NCBI GenBank assembly: GCA_021805985.1
Contig: JAJZDN010000044.1
Location: 1 to 34,837, forward strand
Source: Planctomycetota bacterium
GTDB taxonomy: Bacteria > Planctomycetota > Phycisphaerae > WQYP01
Reading direction: 5' to 3'
Length of the DNA stretch: 34,837 nt
Shown: positions 8,323 through 31,272 of the stretch, one piece after another
How positions within the stretch are numbered: position 1 is the stretch's first letter
Layout of the letters: each line of letters begins with the position of its first letter
Notes under the pieces: generated by a model
Database searches by the model: none
The model's input: only the letters and a program-made list of their open reading frames with translations
Told to the model about the DNA's origin: nothing
Position numbers and translations under genes: made by a program

Positions 8323-8636
8323 ACCAGCAGACTCATGGAGCGTCCTGCCCCGGCCCTTGGTACCTTGGCCGAGTCCGAGATGGGAATATAAAAAACCCTG
8401 GAGGAGAAGGCCTCGATGTGCCTCCTGTGGTTTATTTCCTTGCGATAATAATTGGTACAGCTTTGATAAAAAGTGGGACTTCAATACAGGGAAAAAATAT
8501 GTATGGTCTACTTAATAGACATGGTGCTCGCCGGCACATCCGGTCGGCGAGTCAATGAGTCGGATTAACCGCCGCCGCCCGGGGTTTGTCGAGTGACTTT
8601 CTTGGCTCAGCGGCACATTCAGAACAGGAGAAGTTT
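8323..8636. other. Intergenic region between esterase remnant and prepilin pseudogene
   Basis: No gene is recognised in these 314 bases. The stretch holds promoter-like module copy C (8444-8507) and a GC-rich leader ending in ACAGGAGAAGTTT, the ribosome site of the prepilin pseudogene at 8637. Confidence 0.6.
8444..8507 (+). promoter_or_regulatory. Repeat/promoter module copy C (upstream of prepilin pseudogene)
   Basis: Box 1 is a weaker GATAATAATTGGTAC (8444-8458). Box 2 is GATAAAAAGTGGGACTT (8465-8481), 21 bp on. TATGGT at 8502-8507 follows after exactly 20 bases. Confidence 0.6.
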
Positions 8637-9580
8637 ATGAAAGATCACGGAATTCAAAAACGCAGCAGTGAAGGTTTTACGCTTATTGAGCTGTTGGTGA
8701 TAATATCCATTATCGCGGTTCTCATTGCGTTGCTGTTGCCGGCGTTGGCTAGAGCAAAAAGTTTGGCACAGCAGATCGTGTGCGCGTCAAACTGACAGCT
8801 TGGCATTGCCATGCAGGAATACGCCAACGAATATCAGGCGTACCCTCCGACCAACGATAATATGTTGCCCTTCGGTGGATTTCGCGCCAGCAATGCACGC
8901 AATGGTGTGGCCCAATGGGGGGGGGCGCAGCTTTACAACGGATCCTTTGGTGTCGTAGTCAAAAGATAGTGAATGTCCGCCCGGGTATTCTTACGCCAAA
9001 TGCACAAGGTATTGGTATGCTCTTTTCCACGGAGCCGGGATTGAAATTCACCGAAAGAAATCAGTTGGATCCGCCGTCAAAATATTTTGATGCGTCGACT
9101 GGTCTGTGCAATTATTGGGCCTGGTACTCCGAATACTGCTGCTGGGTGGATCGCGGTACGGACATGTCGCCCGGTGCAACAATTCCGGAAGGTTACAGCA
9201 TGGCTTACGACATGCGATCCGTTGAACTCAAAGGGATCAGGAATCCTGACTACGCCAGCTGGAAATTTTATAATAACTACACCACAATCCACATGCCGGC
9301 GGAAAATCCCCAGTCAAATCCCGGCTCGCTTTTAGCGTCGGACGTGGCGATTATGACGAATCCAACCGGGACTGTGGGTGCTTCGGTGCAAGCTTCAAAT
9401 ACGCTGGGGTCATCTTATATACCGGCCTGTAATCATGTGGATACACCCAATAATAACTACCTGCCGGACGGCGAGCATGAACTGTACAATGATGGATCGG
9501 TTTCCTGGGTGCCGATGTCTCATATAAAGGTACGTACCCTTGAGGCCACATTGAGTACGAGTTTCTATTTTGCCTGGTAA
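8637..9580 (+). pseudogene. Prepilin-like protein gene, broken by a stop codon and a frameshift
   Basis: This paralogue of the gene at 6714 starts at ATG 8637 (after CAGGAGAAGTTT), with [14 protein letters not shown] and [19 protein letters not shown]. The next codon is TGA (8793-8795). In the intact paralogues SNLRQLG or SNMRQIG stands here, so loss of three bases turning TTGCGA into TGA explains it. The same frame then continues QLGIAMQEYANEYQ to LYNGSFGVVVKR and hits TAG at 8967. The remainder ([18 protein letters not shown] to NDGSVSWVPM and the end) is in another frame from about 8955 on, stopping at 9580, so there is also a one-base-class frameshift near 8950-8970. A run of nine G (8917-8925) lies just upstream, but the frame is still correct after it. 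Promoter copy C is intact. Confidence 0.82.
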
Positions 9581-15696: not shown

Positions 15697-17220
15697 ATGT
15701 CCATTACTTCAGAAGACCCGGATACGTTATCTTGGGACACACATGTCCCGGGACTCGGCGCTATCATTTTTGCAGTGTGCGCCGCCGCTCTGGCGGGTCT
15801 GTTGTTTGGCTATGACACCGGCGTGGCTTCGGGAATACAGGGATACCTGCAATCTTATTTTCATTTAAGTGATACGCAACTGGGTTTTGCAATTGCCAGT
15901 CTGGAACTCGGCTGCGTGCCGGGAGCGCTGTTCTCCGGGAGTCTGGCCGACCGTTTTGGCCGTAAAAAAATGCTGATTGTCTGTGCGGTGCTATTCGCGG
16001 TTTCGGGCGTGCTTTCGGCGATACCGCGATCCTTCACCGAACTAATTCTGGCCCGAATCATCGGCGGCCTGGCCATCGGCGCTTCTTCGATGATAGCCCC
16101 GGTTTATATTGCGGAAATAGCCCCCGAACGCCATCGCGGCCGGCTGGGATCGTTATTTCAGCTCGGTATTGTCATCGGAATTGCCGGGGTTTATTGGGTC
16201 AATTACTGGATCGTCAGCGCGGGCCGTCAGGCCCGAATCGGACCGGCAATCGGTATGACCTGGAACCAGACCACGGGTTGGCGCTGGATGCTGGGGTCGG
16301 AAACTTTGCCGGCCATTATTTTTCTGCTGATGATATTGGCCGCACCGGAAAGCCCGCGCTGGCTGGTGATTAATAATCGTGAGGAAGACGGCCGGGACAT
16401 TTTAAGACGCTTCATCGGTGCAGACGGGGCGGATCGCGAGATCCAATCGGTCAAAGAAACGGCATCGCATGAGGAAGGCAGGTTTTCGGAACTCTTTACT
16501 GCCCGCTACCGCCTGCCCTTGATTATCGGATTATTTCTGGCCATTTTCCAGCAGTTCAGCGGCATTAACTCAATCATTTATTATGCCCCGCGGGTGTTCG
16601 AGGCGGCAGGGGTAACGGCGGGTCATGCCTTCGGTTTTACCGCGATCATGGGAACCGCAAAATTGCCGGCGATTTTTATTGCTTTTTCACTGGTAGATAA
16701 GGCGGGAAGAAAAATACTCCTGGCCATTGGAACGGCGATTCAGGTGCTGGCGCTGATATCCGTGGCGGCAATATTTCACGTGGCTGATCGTGTCGTGACG
16801 CCCACATTGGTGCAGGGAAAACTTATGCCTGTCAGCACCATCCACTTCAGTCACAGTCAAGTGTGGATTCTCCTTGGTTGTATCGTAATATTTTGTGTTG
16901 CCTTTACCATGGCGATGGGGCCGCTGGTGTGGATTATCATCTCGGAAATATTCCCGGCACGCATTCGGGGCCGAGCGGCATCGGTGTGTGTTGTGGCCCT
17001 GTGGCTGGCAACATTTGTCGTGGCGCAGAGCTTCCCGATGCTGAAGTCCGATGTGGGTATGTCAGCGACCTATCTTATCTATGCCGGCTGTTCACTGATA
17101 ACTTTTCTTTTTGTGGTTCTGGTGCTGCCCGAAACCAAAGGCCGGACGCTTGAACAGATAGAATCGTATTGGCGCACCCGGCGCGAAAAGCAGCCGTTCC
17201 GGAGTTCCGGTAATACATAA
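15697..17220 (+). CDS. MFS sugar:proton symporter (sugar porter family)
   Basis: An inner-membrane transporter of 507 aa, the usual length for XylE/GalP-type sugar porters, with twelve predicted helices. Signature motifs are all present: GYDTG (38-42) in helix 1, DRFGRKK in the loop after helix 2, PVYIAEIAPERHRGRLG, PESPRWL, QQFSGINSIIYYAP in helix 7, DKAGRKI, and PETKGRTLEQIE at the end. QQFSGIN is the sugar-contact motif of the family. It follows the GH3 xylosidase gene in the same direction and precedes the XylR-type regulator by 24 bp. The natural inference is uptake of xylose, or another aldose, freed by the GH3 enzyme. The start at 15697 has only a modest ribosome site (AGAGAAG), but begins right before the first helix. 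Confidence 0.88.
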   Translation: MSITSEDPDTLSWDTHVPGLGAIIFAVCAAALAGLLFGYDTGVASGIQGYLQSYFHLSDTQLGFAIASLELGCVPGALFSGSLADRFGRKKMLIVCAVLFAVSGVLSAIPRSFTELILARIIGGLAIGASSMIAPVYIAEIAPERHRGRLGSLFQLGIVIGIAGVYWVNYWIVSAGRQARIGPAIGMTWNQTTGWRWMLGSETLPAIIFLLMILAAPESPRWLVINNREEDGRDILRRFIGADGADREIQSVKETASHEEGRFSELFTARYRLPLIIGLFLAIFQQFSGINSIIYYAPRVFEAAGVTAGHAFGFTAIMGTAKLPAIFIAFSLVDKAGRKILLAIGTAIQVLALISVAAIFHVADRVVTPTLVQGKLMPVSTIHFSHSQVWILLGCIVIFCVAFTMAMGPLVWIIISEIFPARIRGRAASVCVVALWLATFVVAQSFPMLKSDVGMSATYLIYAGCSLITFLFVVLVLPETKGRTLEQIESYWRTRREKQPFRSSGNT

Positions 17221-17244: not shown

Positions 17245-18420
17245 ATGATAAATATAGCCCTGGTCATTGATGCACTCGGAAGTTATGGAAGCGGCCTGCT
17301 GCGCGGGATATCACGTTTTGCGCACACCCACCCCAACTGGACCGTGGAATATGAACCCTGGATGGAGGAAGAGAATTTGCCGCGATGGCTGTTTCGCGGC
17401 AAATTTCATGGGGTGTTGTGTCGAATTAGAAATCCCCGTCAGTTTGCGTCACTGCGGCGTCTGCGCGTGCCGATCGTTGATCTGGGATCCCTCGAGCCGC
17501 CCAATGGGATTGCCAATATTCACTCCGATCATCAGGCCATTGCAGAACTCGCTGCGGATCACCTGATGCAGTGCGGTCTGCATACCTTCGCCTATTGCGG
17601 TTTTGAATCGCAGCAGGCATCGGAACGACGTGCCGCGGCATTTCACGCGTATATGTCTGAAAAAGGTTTCGACCCGCGGGTCTTTATCAGTCCAAGCCGA
17701 CGGGGGGGCGGTGCGCGGCGCTCACCGGGCTGGCGATCCAGCATTGATTATGCCCATTTGTTACCGTGGCTCAAGGCGCTTCCCAAGCCGGCGGGCATCA
17801 TGGCGTGCAATGACATCTGCGGACGGCTGGTCCTGGCCGGATGTCAACACGCCGGGATACATGTGCCCGCGGAAATTGTGCTCGTGGGAGTCGATGATGA
17901 CGAAGTACTTTGTGAATTGGCCGTCCCGACCATGACCTCTATCAATCCGGCCGCCGATAAAATTGGGTTTGAAGCAGCGGAAATGCTCGATAGTATCATT
18001 GGTGGCGTAAAGCCCCCGGCCAAGGCGCAGTTGGTTCCGCCGGCCGGGGTCATCACGCGCAGATCCACGGATACCATAGCCGTGGCGGATCCTCTGGTGG
18101 CCAAGGCGCTGCGCTACATCCGCGAGTACACCGGAAAGGGACTGACGGTTGATAAGGTGCTGGATTATCTGGCCAATGACAACATGCTGGTATCGCGTTG
18201 CACATTGGAACGGCGATTTATGTCCATGGCTGGATTCTCCCCCTATGAAGAGATCAATCGCGTGCGACTGAACCGTATCGAGCGTCTGTTGCTCAATACC
18301 CGCTATCCGTTGACGCGTATTGCCGAACTCACCGGGTTCGATGCGGAATGCCATCTGAATCGCTTCTTTAAGAGGTATCGCGGTCAAACCCCGGGCCGCT
18401 TTCGCCTGCAATCGCCGTGA
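17245..18420 (+). CDS. XylR-type transcriptional regulator (LacI-like sensor plus AraC HTH)
   Basis: A 391-aa regulator whose length and architecture match E. coli XylR. Residues 1 to about 270 form a type I periplasmic-binding-protein (LacI/GalR-like) sensor: it starts INIALVIDALGSYGSGLLRG and includes IMACNDICGR and VLVGVDDDE. Residues about 285-390 are an AraC-type double helix-turn-helix (DKVLDYLANDNMLVSRCTLERRF, then PLTRIAELTGFDAECHLNRFF and RYRGQTPGRFR). Such regulators bind a pentose and activate the catabolic operon. It sits 24 bp behind the MFS gene, probably in the same transcript as the xylosidase, so it should sense xylose or a related sugar. It might also act on neighbouring module promoters, but nothing in the sequence proves that. 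Confidence 0.87.
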   Translation: MINIALVIDALGSYGSGLLRGISRFAHTHPNWTVEYEPWMEEENLPRWLFRGKFHGVLCRIRNPRQFASLRRLRVPIVDLGSLEPPNGIANIHSDHQAIAELAADHLMQCGLHTFAYCGFESQQASERRAAAFHAYMSEKGFDPRVFISPSRRGGGARRSPGWRSSIDYAHLLPWLKALPKPAGIMACNDICGRLVLAGCQHAGIHVPAEIVLVGVDDDEVLCELAVPTMTSINPAADKIGFEAAEMLDSIIGGVKPPAKAQLVPPAGVITRRSTDTIAVADPLVAKALRYIREYTGKGLTVDKVLDYLANDNMLVSRCTLERRFMSMAGFSPYEEINRVRLNRIERLLLNTRYPLTRIAELTGFDAECHLNRFFKRYRGQTPGRFRLQSP

Positions 18421-18940: not shown

Positions 18941-19219
18941 ATGAAAGAGTTTTTGATGCACGACGATCAAGACGGCGTCGGCGTCGCCGTTGTAGACATC
19001 AAGGCCGGACAGGAGGTGCAGGGGGCGGCCCTGCATGGCCACGCCGCGCCGCGGGTAAAGGCCTTGATGGAAATTCCACTGGGCCACAAAATCGCGCTGC
19101 GCGATTTCCAGCCCGGTGACACCATCATTAAATATGGCTGTGATATTGGTAAAGTCGTCGCGCCGATTAAAACCGGCGAGCATGTTCATGTTCATAATCT
19201 TAAAACCAAGAGGTGGTAA
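18941..19219 (+). CDS. UxaA/SuyA-type SAF-domain small subunit (candidate sulfolactate sulfo-lyase alpha)
   Basis: A 92-aa protein starting at ATG 18941 after AAGGAGTCCACTG. It is a SAF-domain N-terminal unit of the UxaA/GarD/SuyA dehydratase-lyase family: [46 protein letters not shown] and the typical end [14 protein letters not shown]. Altronate and galactarate dehydratases usually carry this domain fused to the catalytic part. Here it is a separate gene 5 bp before the catalytic subunit, the arrangement and size known for SuyA of (2R)-sulfolactate sulfo-lyase. It would work as a heteromer with the next product in the cytoplasm, cleaving sulfolactate to pyruvate and sulfite, or dehydrating a sugar acid. 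Split UxaA-type dehydratases also exist, so the sulfonate role rests on the operon context. Confidence 0.75.
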
Positions 19220-19224
19220 CAACG

Positions 19225-20388
19225 ATGGGTATTTCTTCATTCAAAGGGTTTCGCCGGGAAAATGGCCGCGTTGGCATCCGCAATTATGTTGTCATCCTGC
19301 CGGTGGACGATATTTCCAATGCGGCCTGCGAGGCCGTGGCCAGTAATATAAAAGGGACGCTGGCTTTGCCACACGCCTACGGGCGGCTGCAGTTTGGCGA
19401 GGATCTGGAGCTGTTTTTCCGCACGATGATAGGCACCGGCGCCAATCCCAATGTCGCGGCATGCGTGGTGATCGGAATTGAACCAGGCTGGACGCAGCGC
19501 ATTGTGGATGGAATCGCCAAAACCGGAAAGCCCGTCACGGGCTTTTCGATTGAGCGCCACGGCGACATCAAGACGATTGCAGCCGCGTCAGTAAAGGCGA
19601 AAGAATACGTTCACTGGGCCAGCGAACTTCAGCGTGAAGACTGTGGAATCGATGAATTATATATTTCTGTGAAATGCGGTGAATCCGATACCACGACAGG
19701 TCTTGCTTCCTGTCCGGCGGTGGGTAATGTGATCGACAAAACCGTGGCACGAGGTTCAACGGCGTCATTCGGTGAAACCTCTGAGTTAACCGGCGGAGAA
19801 CATATCGTAAAGTCCAAAGCCGCGACACCCGAAATTGCCGAAGCTTTCATGAAAGTCTGGAGCAGCTATAGCGATATGATTTTCAAGGAGAAGACTGATG
19901 ACCTGTCGGAATCCCAGCCGACCAAGGGAAACATTCGCGGTGGACTGACGACCATTGAGGAAAAGGCCCTGGGTAATATTGAGAAACTCGGCAAGAAGAC
20001 CAAGTTTGTCGGCGTGCTGAAACCCGCCGAAGCCCCCAGTGGCAAAGGGTTGTGGTTCATGGACACGTCATCCGCCGCCGCGGAAGCCGTAACGCTCTGG
20101 GCGGCATCGGGAGCGGTGGTTCATCTGTTCCCCACCGGACAGGGAAATGTCGTCGGTAATCCGATTGAGCCGGTGATAAAACTCTCGGCTAACCCGGTTA
20201 CATGTTCGACGATGAGCGAGCATATTGATCTTGACGTATCGGCCATTCTCCGGGGAGACATGTCGGTCGATCAGGCCGGGGAAAATTTGCTGGAAATAAT
20301 GTTACGCACGTGCAACGGGCGCCTGACCGCCGCTGAAGTGCTCGGCCACCGCGAATTTGTTCTGACAAAACTTTATCGGAGTGCATAG
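19225..20388 (+). CDS. UxaA/SuyB-type catalytic subunit (candidate sulfolactate sulfo-lyase beta)
   Basis: A 387-aa partner of the preceding SAF protein. I chose ATG 19225, with GAGGTGG eight bases upstream; a GTG at 19213 is the alternative. It is the C-terminal catalytic domain of the UxaA/GarD/SuyB family. It begins with the typical [20 protein letters not shown], followed by [45 protein letters not shown] and [12 protein letters not shown]. Separate coding and about 390 residues agree with SuyB. Family members bind a divalent metal (Fe or Mg) and eliminate a beta group (water or sulfite) from a 2-hydroxy acid. The following genes encode two 2-hydroxyacid dehydrogenases of the types that interconvert sulfolactate enantiomers, which favours (R)-sulfolactate to pyruvate plus sulfite. 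The stop is TAG, showing amber is a normal stop here. Confidence 0.78.
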
Positions 20389-20398
20389 GTAAATACAT

Positions 20399-21511
20399 AT
20401 GTCTAGTGATCAGATACACAAAAGGGTCCCGTCCGTATCAGGGCGTTACCCTCCGGAAACAGTCCGGGCGTTGGCGACAGAGTTGGCGGCGGCGGCCGGA
20501 GTGCCTGAAGCCGATGCGGGGCTATTGGCGGGCGCGTTGGTGGACGCGGATATTCACGGCGTGTCCAGTCATGGAATATCGCGGCTGAACATATATATCC
20601 GTCGCATTCAAAAAGGATTGATCGATCCGGTTGCCGCGTTGACGATGGACCGACACCGCCGTGCGGTATTGGCTGTGGATGCCGGGAACGGCTTGGGACA
20701 AGTTCAGACATTGAAAACCCTGGACCTGCTGGCCCCGATGGCCCGCGACAACGGCATCGCGGCGGCTACCATCCGGAATTCACAACACTTCGGGGCGGTC
20801 AGTTATTACTGTAACCGGGCTGCCGACCAGAATATGATCCTCTTGGCCACCACGAATTGTGAGCCGGCGATGTCTCCGGAGGGCGGATGTCAGGCCTTTT
20901 TCGGAACCAATCCAATTGCCGCGTCATTTCCTACCGGCAAAGGCTTTCATATAAAAATTGATATGGCGACATCCCTTGTGGCGCGAGGAAATATTATCGC
21001 CGCCCAAAAGAGCGGGAAGTCCATTCCGCCAGGATGGGCCTTGAATGTTGATGGTGAACCAACGACCGATGCCTCGGCGGCGTTATTGGGAACTGTGCTG
21101 ACTATGGCGGGACATAAGGGTTACGCCTTGGCATTAATGGTGGAAATGCTCTCCGGCGTGCTCTCGGGTTCCGCTATAGGCTCGCACGTGGGGTCCATGT
21201 ATAAGAATATGGAACGCAGGCAGGACGTCGGACATTTCCTCTGCCTGCTGGATATCTCGGCGTTTATGGATGTGGTCGAATTTAAAAACCGTGTGGATGC
21301 CACGATGGCCGAAATCAAGTCATGCCGCAAACGTCCCGGCGTCGATGAAATTCTGCTTCCCGGAGAACGTTCGCATCGTCTGGCCGTGGAGAACCTGCGG
21401 CGTGGAATATCCATTGACCCCCCCACGCTGAAAGAACTGCAAGTCCTATGCGAAGAGATGCACGTCGCATTTACGCTGGAAAGTTCGGCAGTTCGGGAGG
21501 CGGTATCATGA
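20399..21511 (+). CDS. Ldh2-family NAD(P)-dependent dehydrogenase (malate/L-lactate/(R)-sulfolactate type)
   Basis: A 370-aa member of the malate/L-lactate dehydrogenase (Ldh2) family, which includes ureidoglycolate dehydrogenase, YiaK and the (R)-sulfolactate dehydrogenase ComC. Landmarks are ADIHGVSSHGISRLNIYIRR, the NSQHFGAVSYY block with the catalytic His, FFGTNPIAASFP, DMATSLVARGNI and the GHKGYALALMVEMLSGVLSG block. It begins 10 bp after the lyase subunit, and its TGA overlaps the next start (ATGA at 21508). In a sulfolactate pathway it would reduce sulfopyruvate to (R)-sulfolactate, the substrate of the sulfo-lyase. In a hexonate pathway it could instead reduce a keto acid. The family is clear; the substrate is inferred. 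Confidence 0.8.
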   Translation: MSSDQIHKRVPSVSGRYPPETVRALATELAAAAGVPEADAGLLAGALVDADIHGVSSHGISRLNIYIRRIQKGLIDPVAALTMDRHRRAVLAVDAGNGLGQVQTLKTLDLLAPMARDNGIAAATIRNSQHFGAVSYYCNRAADQNMILLATTNCEPAMSPEGGCQAFFGTNPIAASFPTGKGFHIKIDMATSLVARGNIIAAQKSGKSIPPGWALNVDGEPTTDASAALLGTVLTMAGHKGYALALMVEMLSGVLSGSAIGSHVGSMYKNMERRQDVGHFLCLLDISAFMDVVEFKNRVDATMAEIKSCRKRPGVDEILLPGERSHRLAVENLRRGISIDPPTLKELQVLCEEMHVAFTLESSAVREAVS

Positions 21512-22494
21512 CAACGGATATCCTGGTGGCGGAAAATATCAATGCGCGGGCCTTGGATGAATTAAAAGCCGGATTCACCGTGCTGGTTGATCCGCATCTC
21601 TGGAAATCGCCGGAGAAGCTCCGGGCACACGCCGAGAATTGCCGGGCGCTGATGGTACGCAATCAAACGCGTGTTTCCGCGGAATTGCTTTCAGCCGCCA
21701 AACATCTGGAGGTCATAGGTCGTGCGGGTACCGGCCTGGACAATATTGATGTTCCCGCGGCGACCGCGGCAGGAGTCGTGGTGGTCAACACTCCGGACCA
21801 GAATTCAATGTCGGCTGCGGAATTGACGCTTGCCATGATGCTGGCGCTGGCACGAAAACTTCCTGCGGCGGACCGGAATGTCCGTGGCGGTGGTTGGGAT
21901 CGGCAAAGCTTTATCGGCACGGAATTGTATGGAAAAACCATGGGGATCGTCGGTTTGGGGCGCATCGGAGTTCTCGTGGCATTACGAGCGCGGGCGATGG
22001 GAATGCGGATTATCGCGCATGACGCGTACATCAGCCCGGATGCGGTGGCCGTGACGGAAACACACGCCCGACTTGTTGAACTCGATGTTCTGCTTGGTGA
22101 AGCTGATTTTGTATCGTGTCATGTGCCATTGACGGCTCAAACGGCACACTTATTTAATTATGATCGTTTCAAGAAAATGAAGCCGACGGCGTTTTTCCTG
22201 AATCTTGCGCGTGGAGAGGTGGTCGCGGAGCAGGATCTGCTCCGTGCTCTGGAAGAGAAACGTATTGCCGGTGCCGCTTTGGATGTGCGCGAGCAGGAGC
22301 CTCCGGCGGCCAGTCCGCTTTCGGAGCTGGAAAACGTGATATTGACTCCCCATATAGCGGCGTTCACCCGCGAGGCGCAGGATCGCGTGGTAACGTCCGT
22401 GTGCCGGGATGTGGGCCTGGTTCTATCCGGGCGTGAGGCCGGGAATTTTGTTAATTTTTCAAGACCGCGACGGCATGAAAACAGAAACAGTTGA
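21508..22494 (+). CDS. D-isomer-specific 2-hydroxyacid dehydrogenase (SerA/SlcC-like)
   Basis: A 328-aa NAD-dependent dehydrogenase. I chose the ATG at 21508, which overlaps the upstream stop (ATGA) and has GGGAGGCGG before it. It has the two-domain fold of the phosphoglycerate-dehydrogenase family: IGRAGTGLDNIDVPAA, the Rossmann motif GIVGLGRIG, NLARGEVV with the catalytic Arg, the Glu in REQEPP, and the catalytic His in LTPHIAA. The C-terminal ACT-type regulatory domain of long SerA proteins is absent. The (S)-sulfolactate dehydrogenase SlcC belongs to this family. Next to a ComC-type enzyme and a SuyAB pair, oxidation of (S)-sulfolactate to sulfopyruvate is the attractive role. Reduction of glyoxylate or hydroxypyruvate is the alternative. 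Confidence 0.82.
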   Translation: MTTDILVAENINARALDELKAGFTVLVDPHLWKSPEKLRAHAENCRALMVRNQTRVSAELLSAAKHLEVIGRAGTGLDNIDVPAATAAGVVVVNTPDQNSMSAAELTLAMMLALARKLPAADRNVRGGGWDRQSFIGTELYGKTMGIVGLGRIGVLVALRARAMGMRIIAHDAYISPDAVAVTETHARLVELDVLLGEADFVSCHVPLTAQTAHLFNYDRFKKMKPTAFFLNLARGEVVAEQDLLRALEEKRIAGAALDVREQEPPAASPLSELENVILTPHIAAFTREAQDRVVTSVCRDVGLVLSGREAGNFVNFSRPRRHENRNS

Positions 22495-22512
22495 AACTGG
22501 AAGGACATGGGT

Positions 22513-23160
22513 ATGAAACTATTCCTGGATACCGCTGATGTAGCGCAAATCCGCGAGGTACGTGGTTGGGGCATTTTGGACGGTGTGACCACCAATCCCA
22601 CCCACGTCTCAAAAACGGGACGTCCGGCGGCGGATGTCTATCGCGAAATTTGCTCTCTGGTTGATGGGCCGGTAAGTCTGGAAACCCTCAGCCTCAACGC
22701 CGATGAAATTATTGCCGAAGGCCGAAAGCTCGCGACATTTCATAAGAACGTTGTGGTCAAAGTCCCCCTGATGAAAGAGGGACTCAAGGCCGTGAAGACG
22801 TTATCCTCAGAGGGCATTAAGACGAATGTCACCGTCACGTTCTCACCGCTGCAGGCAATGTTGGCGGCCAAATGCGGCGCGACCTACATCAGTCCGTTTG
22901 TCGGACGGCTTGATGCGGTAGGACACGTGGGCATGGACCTGGTCCGGCAGATCAAGACCATTTACAATAATTATCGGTTCGAGACTGAGATTATCGTGGC
23001 GGCCGTGCGTCATCCGATACATGTACTGGAAGCGGCGCTTGCGGGCGCCGAGATATGCACGATGAGTTTTGATGTGCTCCAGCAGTTGTACCAGCACCCC
23101 CTAACCGATATTGGCATTGAAATGTTTCTTAATGACTGGGAAAAGGTGCCAACGTCATGA
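22513..23160 (+). CDS. TalC/FSA-type transaldolase (candidate sulfofructose transaldolase)
   Basis: A 215-aa protein of the short transaldolase/fructose-6-phosphate aldolase family. ATG 22513 is preferred over 22507 because GGAAGG then has proper spacing and the start MKLFLDTAD matches the family. Conserved features are DGVTTNPT (23-30), the Schiff-base Lys83 in [32 protein letters not shown], and [15 protein letters not shown] at the end. The family forms or breaks a dihydroxyacetone unit on an aldose phosphate. In the known transaldolase route of sulfoglycolysis a protein of this family moves the C3 unit of 6-deoxy-6-sulfofructose to an acceptor and frees sulfolactaldehyde. An isomerase and an aldehyde dehydrogenase in the same operon supply the steps before and after. 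Its TGA overlaps the next ATG at 23157. Confidence 0.85.
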
Positions 23161-24584
23161 CGGCTTTACCGCTTTATCTCAATGGTCAATGGGTGCACAC
23201 GCCGGCGAAAATCGGTGTCGTGAACCCGGCCTTGGGCGAAACATTCAGCGAGGTATGCACAGTAGAACGCGCGGCTGTCGGAAAGGCAATTACCGACGCG
23301 CATAGGGCTTTTGAGCAATGGCGTGAGATACCGGGTAAAGAGCGCGGCGAATACCTGGAAAAAATCGCCGAGGAACTCCAACGGCGCGGCGAGGATATCG
23401 CCCGTACCATTACCATGGAAAATGGCAAGCCTCTGGCACAAAGCCGCGGGGAGCTTGCCATGTCCATAGACCACCTGCGATGGTTTGCCCAGGAGGCCCG
23501 CCGCATCTACGGCCGAATAATTCCGCATCAGGTTCGCGGCAAACGGCATCTGGTCATAAAAACGCCCGTAGGTGTTGTGGCCGCAATTAGTCCATGGAAT
23601 TTTCCTCTGGTGCTGGCGTTGCGCAAAGTTGCCCCCGCGCTGGCCGCTGGCTGCACGGTCATACTTAAACCGGCCAGTGCCACGCCGCTGTGTGCGCTGG
23701 CTTTGGCCGAATGTGTGGACGCCGCAAAATTGCCCGCAGGCGTGTTTCAGTTGATCTTGGGGCGATCCGCGGATATCGCGGAGGAATTTTTAGACAATCC
23801 TCTTTGCCGCAAGATCACGTTCACCGGCTCAACTGAGGTGGGAAGGACGCTTATCCGGGGTGCGGCGGCACACATCAAGCCATTATCGCTGGAGCTTGGT
23901 GGGCACGCGCCGTTACTCATATTCGAGGATGCGGATATGGATGCGGCCGTGGAAGGTGCCATCATTACCAAATTCCGTAATACGGGTCAGTCTTGCATCG
24001 CCTCCAATCGCATATACGTGCAAAGCTCCGTGTACAATACGTTCCTTGAGCAATTTACGAAAAAAGCACGCGCCTTGAAAGTAGGCAATGGGCTGGAGGA
24101 AGATGTGCAGATCGGTCCGCTGATCAACAGCGAGGCTTTGGCCAAAGCACTGGAACATATTGACGACGCGGTGCGGCGCGGTGCCAGGCTTTTATGTGGC
24201 GGCAAACGTCTGGACCGCAAGGGTAATTTTCTTGAACCTACGATACTCGCGGACGTCCCGGCGGACGCTTTGTGCATGTCCGAGGAGACCTTTGCGCCGG
24301 TGGCACCGGTTTGCCCATTTCATACCGAGGCCGAGGCTGTTGCGCGGGCCAACGCGTCGCCTTATGGTCTTGCAGCCTATGCTTTCACACGGGATTTGGA
24401 CCGCGCTATGCGCCTTATGGAATCATTACAAGCCGGCACGGTCGGCATCAATGACGCTGTTCCATCGACCAGCCAATGTCCGTTTGGCGGCGTGAAGGAG
24501 AGCGGCTGGGGGCGGGAGTTGGGGATTGAGGGCTTGGACGGCTTTATGGAAACGAAACATATTTCCTTAGGAGTTCGTATATGA
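23157..24584 (+). CDS. NAD(P)-dependent aldehyde dehydrogenase, succinate-semialdehyde/sulfolactaldehyde type
   Basis: A 475-aa aldehyde dehydrogenase of the GabD-like subgroup. Visible are [21 protein letters not shown], the cofactor-loop FTGSTEVGR, catalytic Glu246 in LELGGHAP and the nucleophile Cys280 in GQSCIASNR, correctly spaced 34 residues apart. [13 protein letters not shown] lies near the end. The Arg just after the catalytic Cys (ASNR) is the one that binds the acid end of the substrate in succinate-semialdehyde dehydrogenases. Sulfolactaldehyde dehydrogenases fall in the same subgroup and use an equivalent site for the sulfonate. It overlaps the transaldolase gene and the isomerase gene by ATGA on both sides, so translational coupling is likely. 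Proposed reaction: sulfolactaldehyde to sulfolactate. Other acid-bearing aldehydes, including succinate semialdehyde, remain possible. Confidence 0.85.
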
Positions 24585-25987
24585 TCAGCCATCAGATGGA
24601 AACACTTCCTGAACAAAAAGCAGAGGGAACGATGCCCCGGAACCGACCGGTGTCGGTAGGAATTATTTTTCTGGGACGGCGACGCCCCGGATTTGATATG
24701 ACGTGGGGAGGGCAGATGGAAAAACGGGTTCGCGCCTCGCTGGCCGATATGGATATGACCTTATTTGAGCCGCCTCAAAAAGCCGTTGATGACAGCTCTT
24801 TGCGCCAGGCGGTAGCGGCCTGCCAGGCACAGGAAGTGGAAGTCATTGTACTGTTGCAGACCACCATGGGTGACGGGCGTCTTGCCCCGACACTGGCCCA
24901 GCTCTGGCCTGATCCGCTGGTGCTTTGGGCCACGCCGGAAAATCCGCAGGGAGATATGATCAGCTCGTGCTCACTGGTGGGCGTGCATTGCTGGGCCTCC
25001 ACACTGCGGCAAATGGGCCACCCGTTTGATCTGGTATATGGCGACCCCGCGGCTTCAGGCACCCAGCGCAGGTTTAATGAGGCCGTGCGGATTGCCGCGA
25101 CCATTCGTCGAATGCGGAAGCTGCGCCTGGGGATTATTGGCGGACAGGCTCCCGGTTATTTTGCAATGAGCGCCGATCCATTTGTGATGCACCGCAGGCT
25201 GGGCGCACAACTGCAAACATTCAGTCTCATGGAATTCGCGGACGTGGTGATGGGATTTAAGGATGCTCAGGTAGCCGCCGATGTGGCGGCGGTCAAAGCG
25301 ACGGGGCTGCTGCATAAAGACACCAGCGACGATGATTTGCCCATGGCTTCGCGGCTATATATGGCCATGCGATGGTTTATGGATCATGAATCTCTTGATG
25401 CAATGGCCCTTCGGGAATGGCCGGAGATTCCGAATAATTTTGGCCAGTGGCCCTACCTCGGAATCGCCCGGCTTACCGACGAAGGTCGCGCGGTGGCCTG
25501 CGAGGGTGATGCCGAGGGCGCCTTGTCCGCGTGGATGGGTGAAAGCCTGGGCCTGGGCCGCTGCTATCTCTCCGATTGGCTTGAACATAATGATGATACG
25601 ATTACGCTGTGGCATGGCGGCGCAGCGCCCATGTCGCTGTGTGCCCCGGCGGGCGAACTTGGTGCCCCGGTGATTGCACGGCATTTCAACATCAAAAAGC
25701 CGGCGGTTATTGAAGCCACGCTGCGCGTTAATATGCCGGTGACGATCATGCGACTATGGCGCTGCGATGGAAAGTATTTTCTTACCGCGCGTGAAGGTCT
25801 GACGATTCAACCTAAACGTCACTTGATGGGTACCAATGGCCTGGTGCAATTAATACGTCAGGATCCGCGGCAATGGTTTGAAGATCTTTGCTACCAGGGT
25901 ATGCCGCATCATGTGGTCGTTTTTGAAGGGCATCACTTTGAATTGTTGAAACGCTTCGCCCTGATCATGAATATTCAATTTATGTAA
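24581..25987 (+). CDS. L-fucose/L-arabinose isomerase superfamily protein
   Basis: A 468-aa protein with the three-layer fold expected of FucI/AraA-type aldose-ketose isomerases. The start at 24581 has TAGGAG at good spacing and overlaps the upstream stop; a later ATG at 24632 also has GAGGG. Recognisable blocks are VSVGIIFLGRRRPGFD, EVIVLLQTTMGDGR, LRLGIIGGQAPGYF, ARLTDEGRAVACEGDAEGAL (the metal-site region with Glu and Asp) and LWHGGAAPMSL. Family enzymes use Mn2+ to convert aldoses to ketoses. As last enzyme of an operon with a transaldolase and an acid-aldehyde dehydrogenase, it is a good candidate for sulfoquinovose to sulfofructose isomerase. L-fucose or another deoxyaldose is the alternative, but no kinase or class II aldolase is present for such a route. 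Confidence 0.78.
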   Translation: MISHQMETLPEQKAEGTMPRNRPVSVGIIFLGRRRPGFDMTWGGQMEKRVRASLADMDMTLFEPPQKAVDDSSLRQAVAACQAQEVEVIVLLQTTMGDGRLAPTLAQLWPDPLVLWATPENPQGDMISSCSLVGVHCWASTLRQMGHPFDLVYGDPAASGTQRRFNEAVRIAATIRRMRKLRLGIIGGQAPGYFAMSADPFVMHRRLGAQLQTFSLMEFADVVMGFKDAQVAADVAAVKATGLLHKDTSDDDLPMASRLYMAMRWFMDHESLDAMALREWPEIPNNFGQWPYLGIARLTDEGRAVACEGDAEGALSAWMGESLGLGRCYLSDWLEHNDDTITLWHGGAAPMSLCAPAGELGAPVIARHFNIKKPAVIEATLRVNMPVTIMRLWRCDGKYFLTAREGLTIQPKRHLMGTNGLVQLIRQDPRQWFEDLCYQGMPHHVVVFEGHHFELLKRFALIMNIQFM

Positions 25988-26000
25988 ATCCGGGGCGAGA

Positions 26001-26012
26001 TTCGCATGCGAA
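26001..26012. promoter_or_regulatory. 12-bp perfect palindrome before symporter gene
   Basis: TTCGCATGCGAA is a perfect 12-bp palindrome in the 107-bp gap between the isomerase and symporter genes. It could be an operator of a helix-turn-helix regulator such as the one at 30136. No matching site was found upstream of that gene. Confidence 0.25.
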
Positions 26013-26094
26013 GTGCGATATCAGTGTCATCAGGAAAGTTGTCATTGTCCGGAATCTTATGAGGCCGGCGATGTAACGCTATTAGGATTGTTAC

Positions 26095-27353
26095 ATGGGC
26101 ACACACGCCGCCATTGGGATTGGCTTGACCCTCTACGCCTGCGTGATGCTGGCATTCGCTTCCTTTTGGATGCGACGCACGACCAGGTCCGCTGATTACA
26201 TGATCGGCGGACGCAACTTTCCCTTCTGGGTGCTCACTGGAACAATCACCGCCGGTTGTATCGGCACTGGTGTCATTGTCGGTGCTTCCGGATTGGCTTA
26301 TCAACACGGCTGGGCGGGAAGCGCATATCCCATAGGACTGGGACTGGGTACGGTTCTGACCGGGCTGGGTTTTGCGGTCATGCGCCGCTACAAATTCATC
26401 ACACTTAGCGAGGAAATAACCGCATACTACGGCGGCAACCGCATCGTCGCCGAATTTTCCAACATCAGTCTGTTTCTGTCACAATTATGCTGGCTGACCG
26501 TGCAGATCATGGGTGCCGCCGCGGTGCTGGCCGCCGTTACCGCGCTTCCCATGCACTGGTGCGTTGTTATCGCCGGCTTAATTGCCGCGGGAATCGCCAT
26601 TCCCGGCGGCATTAAGAGTGTGGTATATACCGACTATATTCAGGCGATTTTTTTGTTGTGTGGATTTGCCGTGCTGACGCACTCGGCATTGACTCACAGC
26701 GGTGGGCTGGCCGGTCTGCGCCACGCGGTGCCGGCCTCATATTTCTCTTTTTTTGGCGAAGCCTCCTACGGTCAATGGAAACTCGCCGGTCTGCTGGTGG
26801 CGCTTATCCTGGCCGTCGTGGCGGACCCTGGGCGCAGGCTTACAATGTATAGCGCCCGAAGTGAGGGTGGCGCACGCGGCGCGATGATCGTCGCGGGTCT
26901 GATTGTCATGGTGTTTTCGATCGTTATCGGGATCGCCGGTATGTATGCATTTAAGCTCGCGCCACATCTGAAAGATCCCGATGAGGCGTTGCTTTGGCTG
27001 GTTATGAATGTACTGCCCGCTTGGCTGGCGGCCCTGGTGGTGGTTTCCGTAGCTTCAGGAATTATCTCGTGTGCCAGTTGGAACGCGATGACCGCCACCA
27101 CGTTCTTTGTGCGACATATCTATCCGTTAGTGACGGGCCATTTGCCGCAACGGCCGCTCCTCACCATGCGGTTGTCCCGACAATGGTGGGTGTGGCAGGG
27201 CATGTCCTGGTCAGCTCGCTCACGCCGCCCACCCAGCGCAGCTTCGAGCAGGTCGTCGCGGTGATGCAACAGCAACGGCAGGCGGTCGAGGGCGAATTAC
27301 CATTGGCTGGGGGCACGCCCATCGGCGCGGCGGAAAATCCGGTTAATGGTTAA
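26095..27353 (+). pseudogene. Sodium:solute symporter (SSS family) with internal deletion and frameshift
   Basis: The ATG at 26095 follows TTAGGATTGTTAC. The frame encodes a normal SSS N-terminal two-thirds: SADYMIGGRNFPFWVL, GVIVGASGLAY, IPGGIKSVVYTDYIQ, VVADPGRRLTMYSA and SVASGIISCASWNAMTATTFFVRHIYP. After TGHLPQRPLL (about 27160) it turns into a short Arg/Ser/Trp-rich tail and stops at 27264. The proper C-terminal tail (VPTMVGVAGHVLVSSLTPPT, then QRSFEQVVAVMQQQRQAVEGE) is in another frame from about 27165 to TAA at 27353. The helices that should lie between are missing. Full-length relatives are about 480-500 aa, so some 80-110 residues were lost, with a frame change. The gene follows the isomerase by 107 bp and probably was the pathway's importer. 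The truncated product is unlikely to transport. Confidence 0.72.
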
Positions 27354-27505
27354 ATGTTCAATGGACCACGAGAATCACGCGTGGCGCATTATGCGAGCCG
27401 GTAAAGACCGTACCAGGGAGGATGTTAAGGAAATTATCCCCGCCGTTGGTTCCGAGGGAAAAGCACATCTGATCAAATGAGTATTTCGTTGCCTTCCCGC
27501 GGACC

Positions 27506-27537
27506 AGCGATATACTGCCATAAGCGATATACTGCCA
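27506..27537 (+). repeat. Tandem 15-bp direct repeat upstream of glycosidase gene
   Basis: AGCGATATACTGCCA occurs at 27506-27520 and again at 27523-27537, a 17-bp period, just 10 bp before the AGGAGG ribosome site of the next gene. It could be a regulator site overlapping the start region, or a recent slippage duplication. Confidence 0.4.
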
Positions 27538-27560
27538 GAAAAGTTCAGGAGGCCTTCGAC

Positions 27561-29963
27561 GTGTCAGCTATGAAAATGCAAAAAGAAGATTCTTTGTCAT
27601 CGATCAAACAATTAAACCGACGGCAAATTCTTGCTGCGGCCGCCATGGCGATGGCCTTCTCCCAGGATCGCCACCCTAATGTCGCGGATGCGTCTGCTAC
27701 ACCAGAAAGCGCGCTCCCACGCCCCTCCAGCGGTGCGATGCCCGCAGCGCCAATGCCGGTACAGGTTCGACATATCGACGGTCATACGATTCTGGAAAAT
27801 GGCTTCATTCACGTCGAATTCGATGTGAAAAAAGCTGCAATAACCAACCTCACCGCCGATTTTTTCGGCCGAGGCTTATACCAGAACAATCTGCTGGGAC
27901 GAGACGGCATTCGCCTCGAGGGTGTCACGGCCAATGGCACGATCAGTGAACCGCGCATCAAAGCCGGGGCAGCTGTTGCGACAGGCCAGGAAACGAAAAT
28001 CTCACCGGTGGCGATACATTTGCCGCAAATCGATCTTGCTGTCGGCGCGGATGGTCATGCATCGATAATCTCTCAATGGACGATCGTTCTGCAACCAGCC
28101 GCACGGTGGTTTGACCTGCAACTGCACACACAGATTCTCGATGACAGGCACCCGGACATGGTGCGTTTACGCTTTGGCTGTAATCAATGGTTCTTCAATG
28201 CACTGTATGAGCGGGGCAATATGCAGCGTAGAGAGGGTTTGTCCCAGGCGTTCTGTTCACACAGTCCATTGCATGTGTTTTACACAATGGACTGTGAAAA
28301 CGGATCCATTTCCATTGTCCCGCAACAGCCTGATGTCATTCTCGAAAGCAATTTGTTTGCCGGCACTGTTTCACAGTGGGGTGGCAGCCAATGCGGGCTG
28401 GATCAAGTGCTCTGCGGAGCATCCAATATATTAAATACATGGGTCCCATTAAAAAATATTCATCCGGCTGGAACCGGAAAGCCGCCGCGCCCAACCATTG
28501 TTGCGTCATTTCGTGTGTATGCTTCGGATATGGCATTTCCAGTGCATACTCTGCCGCCGGAAACCACCATGGAATTTAACGATCTGGCCGCGCTTTACAC
28601 CGCAATCTACGGCAGCTCCGCCGGCGTGCTGGGGAGCTATGACATTCCCGGCTCCGCCTATCCCAATCTTGCCACACCACGTCGTCCGTATGGTGACGGA
28701 AACAGCTTTTTTGATCCGGATGCATGGGAGACTGTTTCGGCGTTAAGTTATTCCGGCGACCCCTTGCTGGCCCGATTGGCACGGCAGGTCGTGGAGCGCA
28801 GTGGAAAATATATGAGCCATGATGGCCAAATCCCCCACAACTTCAACGGTAAAGTACCTACCGACATCGCAATTTCCGGGGCCACGCAATCCGGTCCTAA
28901 TGTGTTCTGGGTCATGGCCTGCATGGATTATGTTCTGGGTACCGGCGATGAGTCCTGGCTGAAAAGCCACTATCCAACGATAAAAAGAGCGGTGGAATGG
29001 CTGCTGGATCGTTACGATCCTAAAGTCAAGCTCGTAAAATTCACCGGTTCTCTGTTCATTGATGTGTTTATCCGCTATGGCTATACGCTGGATACCAATA
29101 TGGCGACCGTTGGCCTGTTGGAGTTAATGGCCCCGGTCTCGGAATTCTGTGGTGATGCAGCCGGTGCACATCGCTATCGGGAACTTCACCAAGCCATCAG
29201 CGAAGGCATCCGCGCTAAGCTATGGAATGGTAAGGATCATTTTGTTACGCAGCGTAACACCAATGGAACCATCCGGGACTTAGTCGATTATGACGGAAAT
29301 TATGGCGCCTTGGCGTTTGGCGTGGTCGATGACCCCTCCTGGCGGGCGGCCATGTTTTCACGCTTGGATAATGGCCCGCACACTCACCCTGGCGGGCGCG
29401 GCACATGGGTTTCCGAAAAATACTACGGCCCGACGGATTGCTACAATGGCAATACCGGCGACTCGGCCACCGCCATGGGGCGCATCTGGTGGCTTGATAT
29501 GAAAGCGCGTCATCGCTACCCCACGATTTCCAACTGCGCTATGTTCAGCCGTACCTATCAAAATATTCGCGGCGATCTGCTGGCCGACACCTGGCTCACG
29601 GAGCGCTACAACGCCCGCGGACAATGTATACGCACGCCTTATTATCATGAATATCCTGAGATAGTCTCGATGGTCATGCGTACCATGCGCTACGGCATTG
29701 ATGTGCACATGGATCGCGTGGTAATTCGACCTATTGAACCCATGGCGTTCGATTTTCAGATGGGACAACTGCGTGTAACCTACGGCCCTGACCGCGTTGT
29801 TGTGCAAGTGCCGGGGCAGCGTAAAATTCGGTATGAGATATTCCATCTGACGCCGCATGCAGGCTATCGCATCTCCAATGGCGTATCGATTAAAGCGGAT
29901 GCCGTGGGGCGGGTAGAATTTTCGGGAAATGCCGGATTGACGTATGTCATACAAAAAATTTAA
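27561..29963 (+). CDS. Tat-exported six-hairpin glycoside hydrolase, family undetermined
   Basis: An 800-aa exported enzyme. I chose the GTG at 27561 because a perfect AGGAGG lies eight bases upstream. ATG 27570 is the next candidate; earlier starts have no ribosome site. A Tat signal (LNRRQILAAAAMAMAF) follows. An N-terminal beta-sandwich (about 55-330) leads into an (alpha/alpha)6 barrel (about 360-690) with DAWETVSALSYSGDPLLAR, QSGPNVFWVMACMDYVLGTG, EWLLDRYDP, LWNGKDHF and YDGNYGALAFG. A small C-terminal beta-domain closes it. This layout is that of glycogen-debranching/GH78/GH63-like and related six-hairpin enzymes; I cannot name the family or the catalytic acids with confidence. The neighbouring regulator at 30136 probably controls it. 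It is not a known sulfoquinovosidase type (GH31 or GH188). Confidence 0.65.
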   Translation: MSAMKMQKEDSLSSIKQLNRRQILAAAAMAMAFSQDRHPNVADASATPESALPRPSSGAMPAAPMPVQVRHIDGHTILENGFIHVEFDVKKAAITNLTADFFGRGLYQNNLLGRDGIRLEGVTANGTISEPRIKAGAAVATGQETKISPVAIHLPQIDLAVGADGHASIISQWTIVLQPAARWFDLQLHTQILDDRHPDMVRLRFGCNQWFFNALYERGNMQRREGLSQAFCSHSPLHVFYTMDCENGSISIVPQQPDVILESNLFAGTVSQWGGSQCGLDQVLCGASNILNTWVPLKNIHPAGTGKPPRPTIVASFRVYASDMAFPVHTLPPETTMEFNDLAALYTAIYGSSAGVLGSYDIPGSAYPNLATPRRPYGDGNSFFDPDAWETVSALSYSGDPLLARLARQVVERSGKYMSHDGQIPHNFNGKVPTDIAISGATQSGPNVFWVMACMDYVLGTGDESWLKSHYPTIKRAVEWLLDRYDPKVKLVKFTGSLFIDVFIRYGYTLDTNMATVGLLELMAPVSEFCGDAAGAHRYRELHQAISEGIRAKLWNGKDHFVTQRNTNGTIRDLVDYDGNYGALAFGVVDDPSWRAAMFSRLDNGPHTHPGGRGTWVSEKYYGPTDCYNGNTGDSATAMGRIWWLDMKARHRYPTISNCAMFSRTYQNIRGDLLADTWLTERYNARGQCIRTPYYHEYPEIVSMVMRTMRYGIDVHMDRVVIRPIEPMAFDFQMGQLRVTYGPDRVVVQVPGQRKIRYEIFHLTPHAGYRISNGVSIKADAVGRVEFSGNAGLTYVIQKI

Positions 29964-30135: not shown

Positions 30136-31272
30136 GTGCGAACCGCAAAAAAAACCCATGATGTTTATGCCTACGTCCTGCGCGGAATTGAGACCGGCAG
30201 GTTTCGCATCGGCGAACGAATCCCGGCTGAGCGTGATTTGGCGATCCAATTCAAAGTTTCCCGGCCAACGATTACCGCCGCGATCCAGCGTCTGGTCAGA
30301 GAGAACATGATTCGCCGCAGCCGCAATGCGGGCTCAGTTGTGCTGAAGGCCCCTACGCGAAAGTCCTTGACTTTTGGGGCCATACTTCTGGGGCTGAACC
30401 GCCAGCACCAGGAGGAGACAATTTTTAGTGCGGTGGGCAATGAAATCGTACACCGCGCAAGTATGGAGCATTCCATGGTGTTGCTGCAGGATCCTTCCTG
30501 GTTGGAGTATCCGGGTGATCCCGGCCTGACCCAGCGTTACGGAGCGATCATCCGCCAATTCATTGAGCGTAAGGTGGCGGGAGTATTTTTGACCCCCCAG
30601 TGGATACTGCCTGAACAATATGTCTCAACGACGGCCGGAGTTGTAGAAGAACTGGCTCAAGCCGCAATTCCCGTCGTCCTGATTGACGGTGACGTCGTCC
30701 GCTATCCGGCCCGTAGTCGATTCGATCTGGTCGGAATTGATAATTTTCATTCCGGTTATTTTCTGGCCGAGCACTTCATTAAACTGGGTTGCCGGAAAAT
30801 CGACTTTTTCGCAATCGCCATGCGCCATCCGACTCAGGAGGCCCGCATTGCCGGGTATCTTAAAGCGATTGAAGCCCACGGCCTGCACCCCGATCCCGCA
30901 GGTATTCATTACGGGGACCTTCTGGGCGGCGATTTTGTGGTGGCAACCCTGCGCCGGCGGCGTCCGGAAGCCGTGCTGGTGGTTAACGACTTTCGGGCGG
31001 CCTCCGTGATGCGGATGGCATTGGCGGCGGGGATCAAGATTCCGCAGGAAGTTCGCATAGGGGGCTTTGATGACCTGCCCATGGCTTGTCATTTATCCGT
31101 TCCTCTGACCACCATCCGGCAACCGGCGGCGGGGATCGGGGCCATTGCGCTGCACACCATGCTTCAACGGATCAACGAGCCACAGCTTCCCCCGATGCAC
31201 ATTGAGGCAACCGCGGAATTAATCGTCCGTGCCTCCTCTGGTTCCCCCATTGTCCATGCACGGACGCCTTGA
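30136..31272 (+). CDS. GntR/LacI hybrid transcriptional regulator
   Basis: A 378-aa regulator with a GTG start at 30136 preceded by CGGAGAATTT. Residues 1 to about 72 are a GntR-type winged helix (YAYVLRGIETGRFRIGERIP, ERDLAIQFKVSRPTITAAIQ, LVRENMIRRSRNAGSVV). Residues about 78-370 are a LacI/GalR-type sugar-sensing domain (TFGAILLGL, VAGVFLTPQW, VLIDGDVV, VGIDNFHSGYFLAEHF, AVLVVNDFRAASVM, IGGFDDLPMACHLSVPLTTIRQP). This is the AraR-like arrangement seen for repressors of sugar operons. It lies 172 bp after the six-hairpin glycosidase gene on the same strand and may respond to the sugar that enzyme releases. The inducer is unknown. Confidence 0.86.
   Translation: MRTAKKTHDVYAYVLRGIETGRFRIGERIPAERDLAIQFKVSRPTITAAIQRLVRENMIRRSRNAGSVVLKAPTRKSLTFGAILLGLNRQHQEETIFSAVGNEIVHRASMEHSMVLLQDPSWLEYPGDPGLTQRYGAIIRQFIERKVAGVFLTPQWILPEQYVSTTAGVVEELAQAAIPVVLIDGDVVRYPARSRFDLVGIDNFHSGYFLAEHFIKLGCRKIDFFAIAMRHPTQEARIAGYLKAIEAHGLHPDPAGIHYGDLLGGDFVVATLRRRRPEAVLVVNDFRAASVMRMALAAGIKIPQEVRIGGFDDLPMACHLSVPLTTIRQPAAGIGAIALHTMLQRINEPQLPPMHIEATAELIVRASSGSPIVHARTP

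Follow-up and report, generated by a model that had tools for sequence, protein, structure and literature searches.

Does the truncated symporter gene of this locus mark an operon that now takes up its substrate by another route, or a pathway that has begun to decay? The gene belongs to the SSS family and lies on a contig that was analyzed over its whole length (34,837 nt; hereafter the window), which is contig C13 of a 4.68-Mb assembly of 197 contigs with 95.5% completeness. The closest named relatives of this uncultured Planctomycetes genome are MAGs labeled Phycisphaerales or Planctomycetota. The reading that we favor, with a probability of roughly 0.6, is that the gene is a recent, ordinary deletion pseudogene in an operon that is still largely conserved and whose importer is replaceable. 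By this account, a 241-bp illegitimate, microhomology-flanked deletion would have led to a recent loss of SSS function; a second, possibly older, deletion of 769 bp would have removed most of the adjacent class II aldolase gene; and the otherwise intact operon would have been kept, with sulfosugar uptake through another carrier. Two further features of the contig were noticed by eye: a broken prepilin-like gene at 8600-9580, with a stop after 'CASN' near 8790 and the rest at 8915-9580 in a changed frame, and a transposase-like fragment at the contig edge (3-839), which matched no Pfam family.

Two deletions in neighboring genes

The truncated SSS gene occupies positions 26095-27264 (like all window features given below, on the + strand) and encodes 389 amino acids, of which residues 1-360 are homologous to those of its orthologues and the final 29 are frame-shifted. 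Orthologues in three congeneric genomes (L016 = G006 C333, L017 = G005 C10, L018 = G003 C337) are open genes of 499 codons in the same operon order, and the window gene is 91-92% identical to them as far as residue 361. When compared base by base with L017, the reference for both deletions, the window is missing 241 bp at a junction at 27172-27174 with a 3-nt microhomology (TTG), a loss that takes codons 361-440 and one base of codon 441 (80.3 codons). Not being divisible by 3, this loss shifts the frame, and the deletion point is followed by 29 foreign residues (361-389) and then a stop. A remnant of the C-terminal tail persists in another frame at 27175-27353, with its stop (27351-27353) kept; residues 432-498 match window positions 27147-27347 at 67% identity (tblastn, E 1.7e-20). 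Programmed frameshifting or read-through is ruled out by the size of the difference: the window is short of 241 bp that L016-L018 have, not of 1-2 bases. An earlier note on this DNA had proposed, from the sequence of the window, a symporter broken here by a deletion with a frame change, with the end of its tail surviving in another frame, and had suggested looking for the intact orthologue in relatives. The alignment with the three open orthologues bears out the break, its position and the surviving tail; from the loss of 80-110 residues that had been estimated, the lower end stands.

We then considered what the protein has lost. The Pfam SSF match of the window ORF is limited to profile positions 1-331 of 406, compared to 1-405 for the intact orthologue at L017, which belongs to the SSS family by this profile (96.5 bits, cut-off 22.8). 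An AlphaFold model of the intact orthologue (pLDDT 83, 19 sequences) has an SSS/LeuT-type fold that aligns over nearly the whole chain with CHT1 (Z 43.8), SiaT (Z 38.6) and vSGLT (Z 29.3), and its helices 354-373, 379-403 and 409-428 lie within the lost residues 361-440 or straddle their boundary. Since AgcS, a LeuT-fold protein, aligns with model residues 39-403, helix 379-403 was taken by position as TM10 and helix 354-373 as TM9. On this numbering, the window copy does not have a complete LeuT-fold core from TM1 to TM10, as it has lost TM10, the helix after it and most of TM9, together with 10 of the 75 invariant columns in the 19-sequence alignment. From the missing TM10 and most of TM9 in this model, we infer that the truncated protein would be without transport.

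About 190 bp downstream of the first deletion lies a second, absent from the earlier note, at a junction at 27362-27363, where 769 bp are missing relative to L017 and the microhomology is 2 nt (TG). Downstream of the SSS gene, L016-L018 have a class II aldolase gene of 291 codons and, after it, a glycoside hydrolase gene; the second deletion takes the start and ~250 codons of the aldolase. Of the aldolase, the last 38 codons are left; with a preceding ATG at the junction they make up a 39-codon open frame (27361-27480), and its stop codon still shares the original ATGA with the start codon of the hydrolase gene. The intact aldolase of L017 scored 238 bits against F_bP_aldolase, 133 bits against PDB 8q58, which we take to be a SqiA structure, and 140 bits against an FBP aldolase. 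For a class II sulfofructose-phosphate aldolase of the SqiA kind, one would expect the higher score against SqiA and a kinase gene close by. Inspection of the L017 ORFs, as distinct from a family search, brought no kinase to notice.

Could both deletions be misjoins of a metagenome assembly? The window genome is fragmented, and its relatives are mostly MAGs, which would fit such an artefact. However, the sequences overlap at the junctions by just 3 nt and 2 nt, and overlaps of 2-3 nt are far below assembly k-mer length. In addition, the flanks are colinear over ~8.7 kb and 2.7 kb, and the aldolase stub bears changes of its own. We therefore regard misassembly as very unlikely. No tandem repeat was found behind the deletion in window positions 26000-28000.

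Operon genes and the selection acting on them

The operon opens with a SuyA-like small subunit of 92 aa (18941-19219; SAF 25.4 bits, cut-off 21), whose homologues stand immediately 5' of SuyB at L023 (47%) and L025 (76%). It is followed by a SuyB-like sulfolactate sulfo-lyase large subunit of the galactarate/altronate dehydratase family (19213-20388; Pfam GD_AH_C 282 bits), a ComC-like (R)-sulfolactate dehydrogenase of the Ldh_2 family (20399-21511; NCBIfam NF040650 278.7 bits, cut-off 500) and a 2-hydroxyacid dehydrogenase matching the 2-Hacid_dh families (21508-22494; longest ORF from 21448). The latter is called SlcC-like from its neighborhood, and no SlcC model matched it. Next come a member of the transaldolase/fructose-6-phosphate aldolase family (22507-23160; TIGR00875 313 bits, cut-off 246), an aldehyde dehydrogenase identified by family profile searches (23157-24584) and an SftI-like sugar isomerase (24581-25987; best NCBIfam NF048012, sulfoquinovose isomerase, 163.7 bits, cut-off 700). 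The transaldolase is a candidate SF-transaldolase that scored 164.6 bits against BmSF-TAL (PDB 8bc3) versus 269 bits against an ordinary transaldolase (1vpx), and the aldehyde dehydrogenase is a candidate sulfolactaldehyde dehydrogenase. Behind the two deletions, the 6-hairpin-type glycoside hydrolase is an open frame with weak family matches only (27477-29963), and a GntR-HTH/LacI-type regulator lies further downstream (30136-31272). By eye, the glycoside hydrolase has a Tat-like N-terminus and is possibly exported; by its position, it could cleave a sulfoquinovoside outside the cytoplasm.

SuyA and SuyB are adjacent, as expected of an extended sulfo-TAL pathway, by homology and gene order, and their lyase activity is predicted. 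The isomerase and ComC had their best scores against sulfonate families, yet below the NCBIfam cut-offs. With SuyAB, ComC, SlcC, the transaldolase, the aldehyde dehydrogenase and the SftI-like isomerase together, the operon resembles an extended pathway for sulfoquinovose, in which the isomerase would feed a sulfofructose transaldolase, followed by sulfolactaldehyde dehydrogenase, racemization by SlcC/ComC and C-S cleavage by SuyAB.

No spare second operon was found in the window genome (95.5% complete) at the thresholds used: there was no second SuyB at E <= 1e-30, no second intact SSS of the operon clade at E 1e-20, and, as to the lost kind of aldolase, just the stub and a 33% homologue. The two other SSS genes of the genome (C52 and C33; loci L035 and L036) have neighbors that match no pathway protein except for one aldehyde dehydrogenase at 34%. 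A side check for sulfite exporters returned two TauE-family genes, both located on other contigs than the window.

We analyzed dN/dS between the window and L017 for the operon genes from SuyB onward, and compared an AraC-type regulator upstream of the operon with L048. The values were 0.047 for SuyB, 0.145 for ComC, 0.084 for SlcC, 0.033 for the transaldolase, 0.079 for the aldehyde dehydrogenase, 0.114 for the isomerase and 0.164 for the glycoside hydrolase, while the regulator gave 0.062; the other operon genes of the window are open, with dN/dS of 0.03-0.16. For the broken symporter, dN/dS was 0.069 over residues 1-360 and 0.256 over the tail. When changes were polarized, the ratio of nonsynonymous (N) to synonymous (S) changes in residues 1-360 was 9/40 on the window branch and 5/34 on the other branch (Fisher p 0.57), and that in the tail was 0/4 on the window branch. 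Because the SSS remainder is not relaxed, its deletion would be recent relative to the split of the window from L017, at a dS of 0.62. It follows from such a recent deletion that the low dN/dS of the other genes is no proof that the pathway is needed or used at present.

Unrelaxed residues 1-360 could also be explained if the truncated protein retained some function, as a smaller transporter or a sensor, and both the dN/dS of 0.069 and the lack of a significant N excess on the window branch agree with this. Such a function is, in our judgment, extremely unlikely for a protein that has lost TM10 and most of TM9 and ends in 29 foreign residues, and a recent deletion accounts for the same numbers. 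In the aldolase stub, 4 N and 3 S changes fall on the window branch, and the L017 branch has 0 N and 6 S (L043 as the outgroup; one site unpolarized). Few as these sites are, they hint that the second deletion is the older of the two.

Alternatively, the pathway may be starting to decay, with the importer and one enzyme gene gone and the rest too recent to have degraded. Two separate deletions in neighboring genes, the second costing an enzyme gene, point in this direction, as do the hint of relaxation in the aldolase stub and the lack of a spare operon in the genome. On the other hand, the remaining operon genes are open and have low dN/dS. We consider decay, the main rival reading, possible but less likely, also in light of the related operons described below.

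Repeated loss of the symporter in the genus

Eight copies of the operon, whole or partial, were found in the genus. The SSS is intact in four of them (G003 C337, G004 C154, G005 C10 and G006 C333), broken or reduced to a remnant in three (the window, G002 C312 and G003 C342) and absent from one (G004 C24). In a tree of the isomerase, the window groups with L016-L018 (98/98), and G002, G003 C342 and G004 C24 (loci L043, L047 and L044, respectively) fall into a sister clade (99/98), referred to here as the sister form. The SSS remnants in the gap between isomerase and aldolase of G002 and G003 C342 are a 5' scrap plus a segment that aligns with residues 403-432 or 403-437, with ~1.15 kb and 0.18 kb missing compared to L017, and the SSS breakpoints of these two copies differ from that of the window. 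The supported splits and the different breakpoints indicate that the SSS was lost independently in the window and in the sister form.

The sister form also bears on whether an operon is kept once its importer has gone. In L043, all seven enzyme genes seen are open. Between G002 and G003 C342, the enzymes differ by 8 N and 17 S changes, all but two of them in the aldehyde dehydrogenase; the pN/pS of 0.15 departs from neutrality with p 3.6e-6. The gap differs by 9 substitutions and one indel over an alignment of 312 columns. Identical and diverged stretches are mixed, with 0 differences in 1407 bp of the isomerase and 23 in 1170 of the aldehyde dehydrogenase, possibly as a result of recombination or of mis-binning of the short G003 contig. 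The selection on these enzymes after a shared loss is the best evidence that the operon can persist once its SSS is gone.

G004 offers a different outcome. Its copy on C24 (L044 3358-8141) has neither SSS nor aldolase, its transaldolase is missing the front part, and ComC and SlcC are gone as well. C24 is one more copy in decay, in a genome whose operon on C154 is complete. That a copy without an SSS went on to lose so much argues for decay in the window as well. However, with the complete second operon in the same genome, the state of C24 may reflect redundancy, and in G002 the other enzyme genes stayed open and under selection after the loss. The earlier note had left the choice between uptake by another transporter and decay open; the separate loss in the sister form, with its enzymes still selected, mildly favors the former. 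Together, these close relatives, differing as they do in the intactness of the SSS, make up a natural experiment on the sulfosugar carrier. They are also a warning that a missing importer goes unnoticed when operon completeness is scored only from the enzyme genes.

Candidate carriers and known systems

The same clade of SSS recurs next to the same genes well beyond the genus, in answer to the earlier note's suggestion to search for further SSS genes with these neighbors. We surveyed 19 loci with SSS homologues, within the DNA flanks compared. The SSS clade follows an SftI-like isomerase in Planctomycetota (L016-L018, L038), in Verrucomicrobiota (L025-L027, L031) and in one 'Acidobacteria' MAG (L024), and the SSS is in turn followed by an aldolase at L026, L027 and L031. 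Its place behind the isomerase in several phyla makes the SSS a recurring part of the operon. At L023, SuyAB and ComC lie ~5 kb from the SSS, and in G014 the SSS (71%) and SuyB are on separate contigs. In the DNA compared, no pathway genes were found at L019-L022 and L028 or at three Pseudoalteromonas loci (SSS identity 30-33%), and no SuyB at L029 and L030, the former of which has an aldehyde dehydrogenase at 49%. At L037, L040, L041 and L042, a paralogous SSS, 63% identical to that of the operon, has as its neighbors an AraC/LacI-type regulator and a sulfatase-like gene, and at three of the four a radical-SAM/SPASM gene as well (Pfam on L037 only).

With its solute read solely from the neighboring genes, the operon SSS is probably an importer of sulfoquinovose or a similar sulfosugar. 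No paper on a sodium-coupled sulfosugar importer was found, by title, in the sulfoquinovose symporter literature searched, and the operon SSS genes are testable candidates for one.

If the window SSS is defunct, uptake would now run through another carrier. The nearest candidate is an XylE-type MFS sugar porter upstream of the operon (15697-17220), which scored 364 bits against Pfam Sugar_tr, 360 bits against the NCBIfam sugar porter model TIGR00879 (above cut-off) and 276 bits against PDB XylE 4gby. It stands between a GH3 gene and the AraC-type regulator, which combines a periplasmic-binding-protein-like domain with an AraC-type HTH domain (17245-18420; 87% DNA identity to L048). From its position one might guess that this MFS takes up the sulfosugar. 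In G002, G003, G005 and G006 the same regulator adjoins a different kind of MFS, which we take to be ACS-type, and in G002 and G005 it does so at this locus. In NCBIfam, the G005 copy came closest to the D-galactonate transporter subfamily, at 186 bits and thus short of the cut-off of 395. G004 has an XylE-type MFS that is 84% identical to that of the window. Two carrier kinds thus occupy one slot (window 15697-17220; L048 6246-7580; L053 4426-5949). No galactonate-transporter-like MFS was found in the window genome, the only homologue being one of 57% on C114.

A unit of MFS and regulator lies upstream in all three SSS-deficient operons with a visible upstream region (the window, G002 and, ~8 kb off, G004 C24), compared to one of three SSS-intact operons (present in G005; absent from G006 over ~4 kb and from G004 C154 over ~9 kb). 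G003 C337 and G003 C342 were left out of this tally, as their contigs end too early. These operons are too few to conclude that linkage to an MFS caused the SSS loss. The pair of MFS and regulator is present somewhere in all six genomes, with GH3 beside it in five; in G003 the contig ends. In G006, the GH3-MFS-regulator unit and the sulfosugar operon are on separate contigs, and other genes follow the unit there, so that the link between MFS and operon may be only positional.

A broader account would treat the importers of this operon as exchangeable modules: an ancestral sodium-coupled SSS, shared by Planctomycetota and Verrucomicrobiota, would have been deleted repeatedly wherever a linked MFS took over, be it XylE-type or D-galactonate-transporter-like, from the GH3-MFS-regulator unit. 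We hold this to be rather doubtful. For the window itself, we keep to a recent deletion pseudogene in an operon that is still largely conserved.

How does this operon compare with known systems? No title found in the sulfoquinovose gene-cluster literature searched names it in Planctomycetota or Verrucomicrobiota, and it may already be in print. Extended sulfo-TAL clusters with SuyAB are reported from Thermotogae and Chloroflexi (PMC9594981), suggesting the use of all carbon atoms. Like those clusters, ours places SuyAB together with genes of the sulfo-TAL kinds, which here are candidates. The present loci are from Planctomycetota and Verrucomicrobiota and were assigned by homology, and they also have SlcC/ComC, a class II aldolase, an SSS and an aldehyde dehydrogenase that is a candidate for the sulfolactaldehyde step. 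Sulfolactate biomineralization by SlcC/ComC and SuyAB is described together with an ED-type pathway for sulfofucose and a putative ABC importer (PMC12421959). The co-occurrence of these four kinds of gene is common to that system and the window operon, in which they are accompanied by an SSS, an isomerase and an enzyme of the transaldolase family.

As to the importer, the intact orthologue shares its fold and full length with SSS proteins of known structure (CHT1, SiaT, vSGLT and SGLT), at 15-20% identity in structural alignments, whereas the window copy differs from them in being without TM10 and the neighboring helices. Finally, the 2-3 nt microhomology, the frame shift and the remnants are those of an ordinary pseudogene formed by deletion within a catabolic operon; what differs is that the same importer was lost at least twice within one genus. 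Gene loss of this sort is ordinary and the operon is of a known kind, and what stands out is the recurrence.
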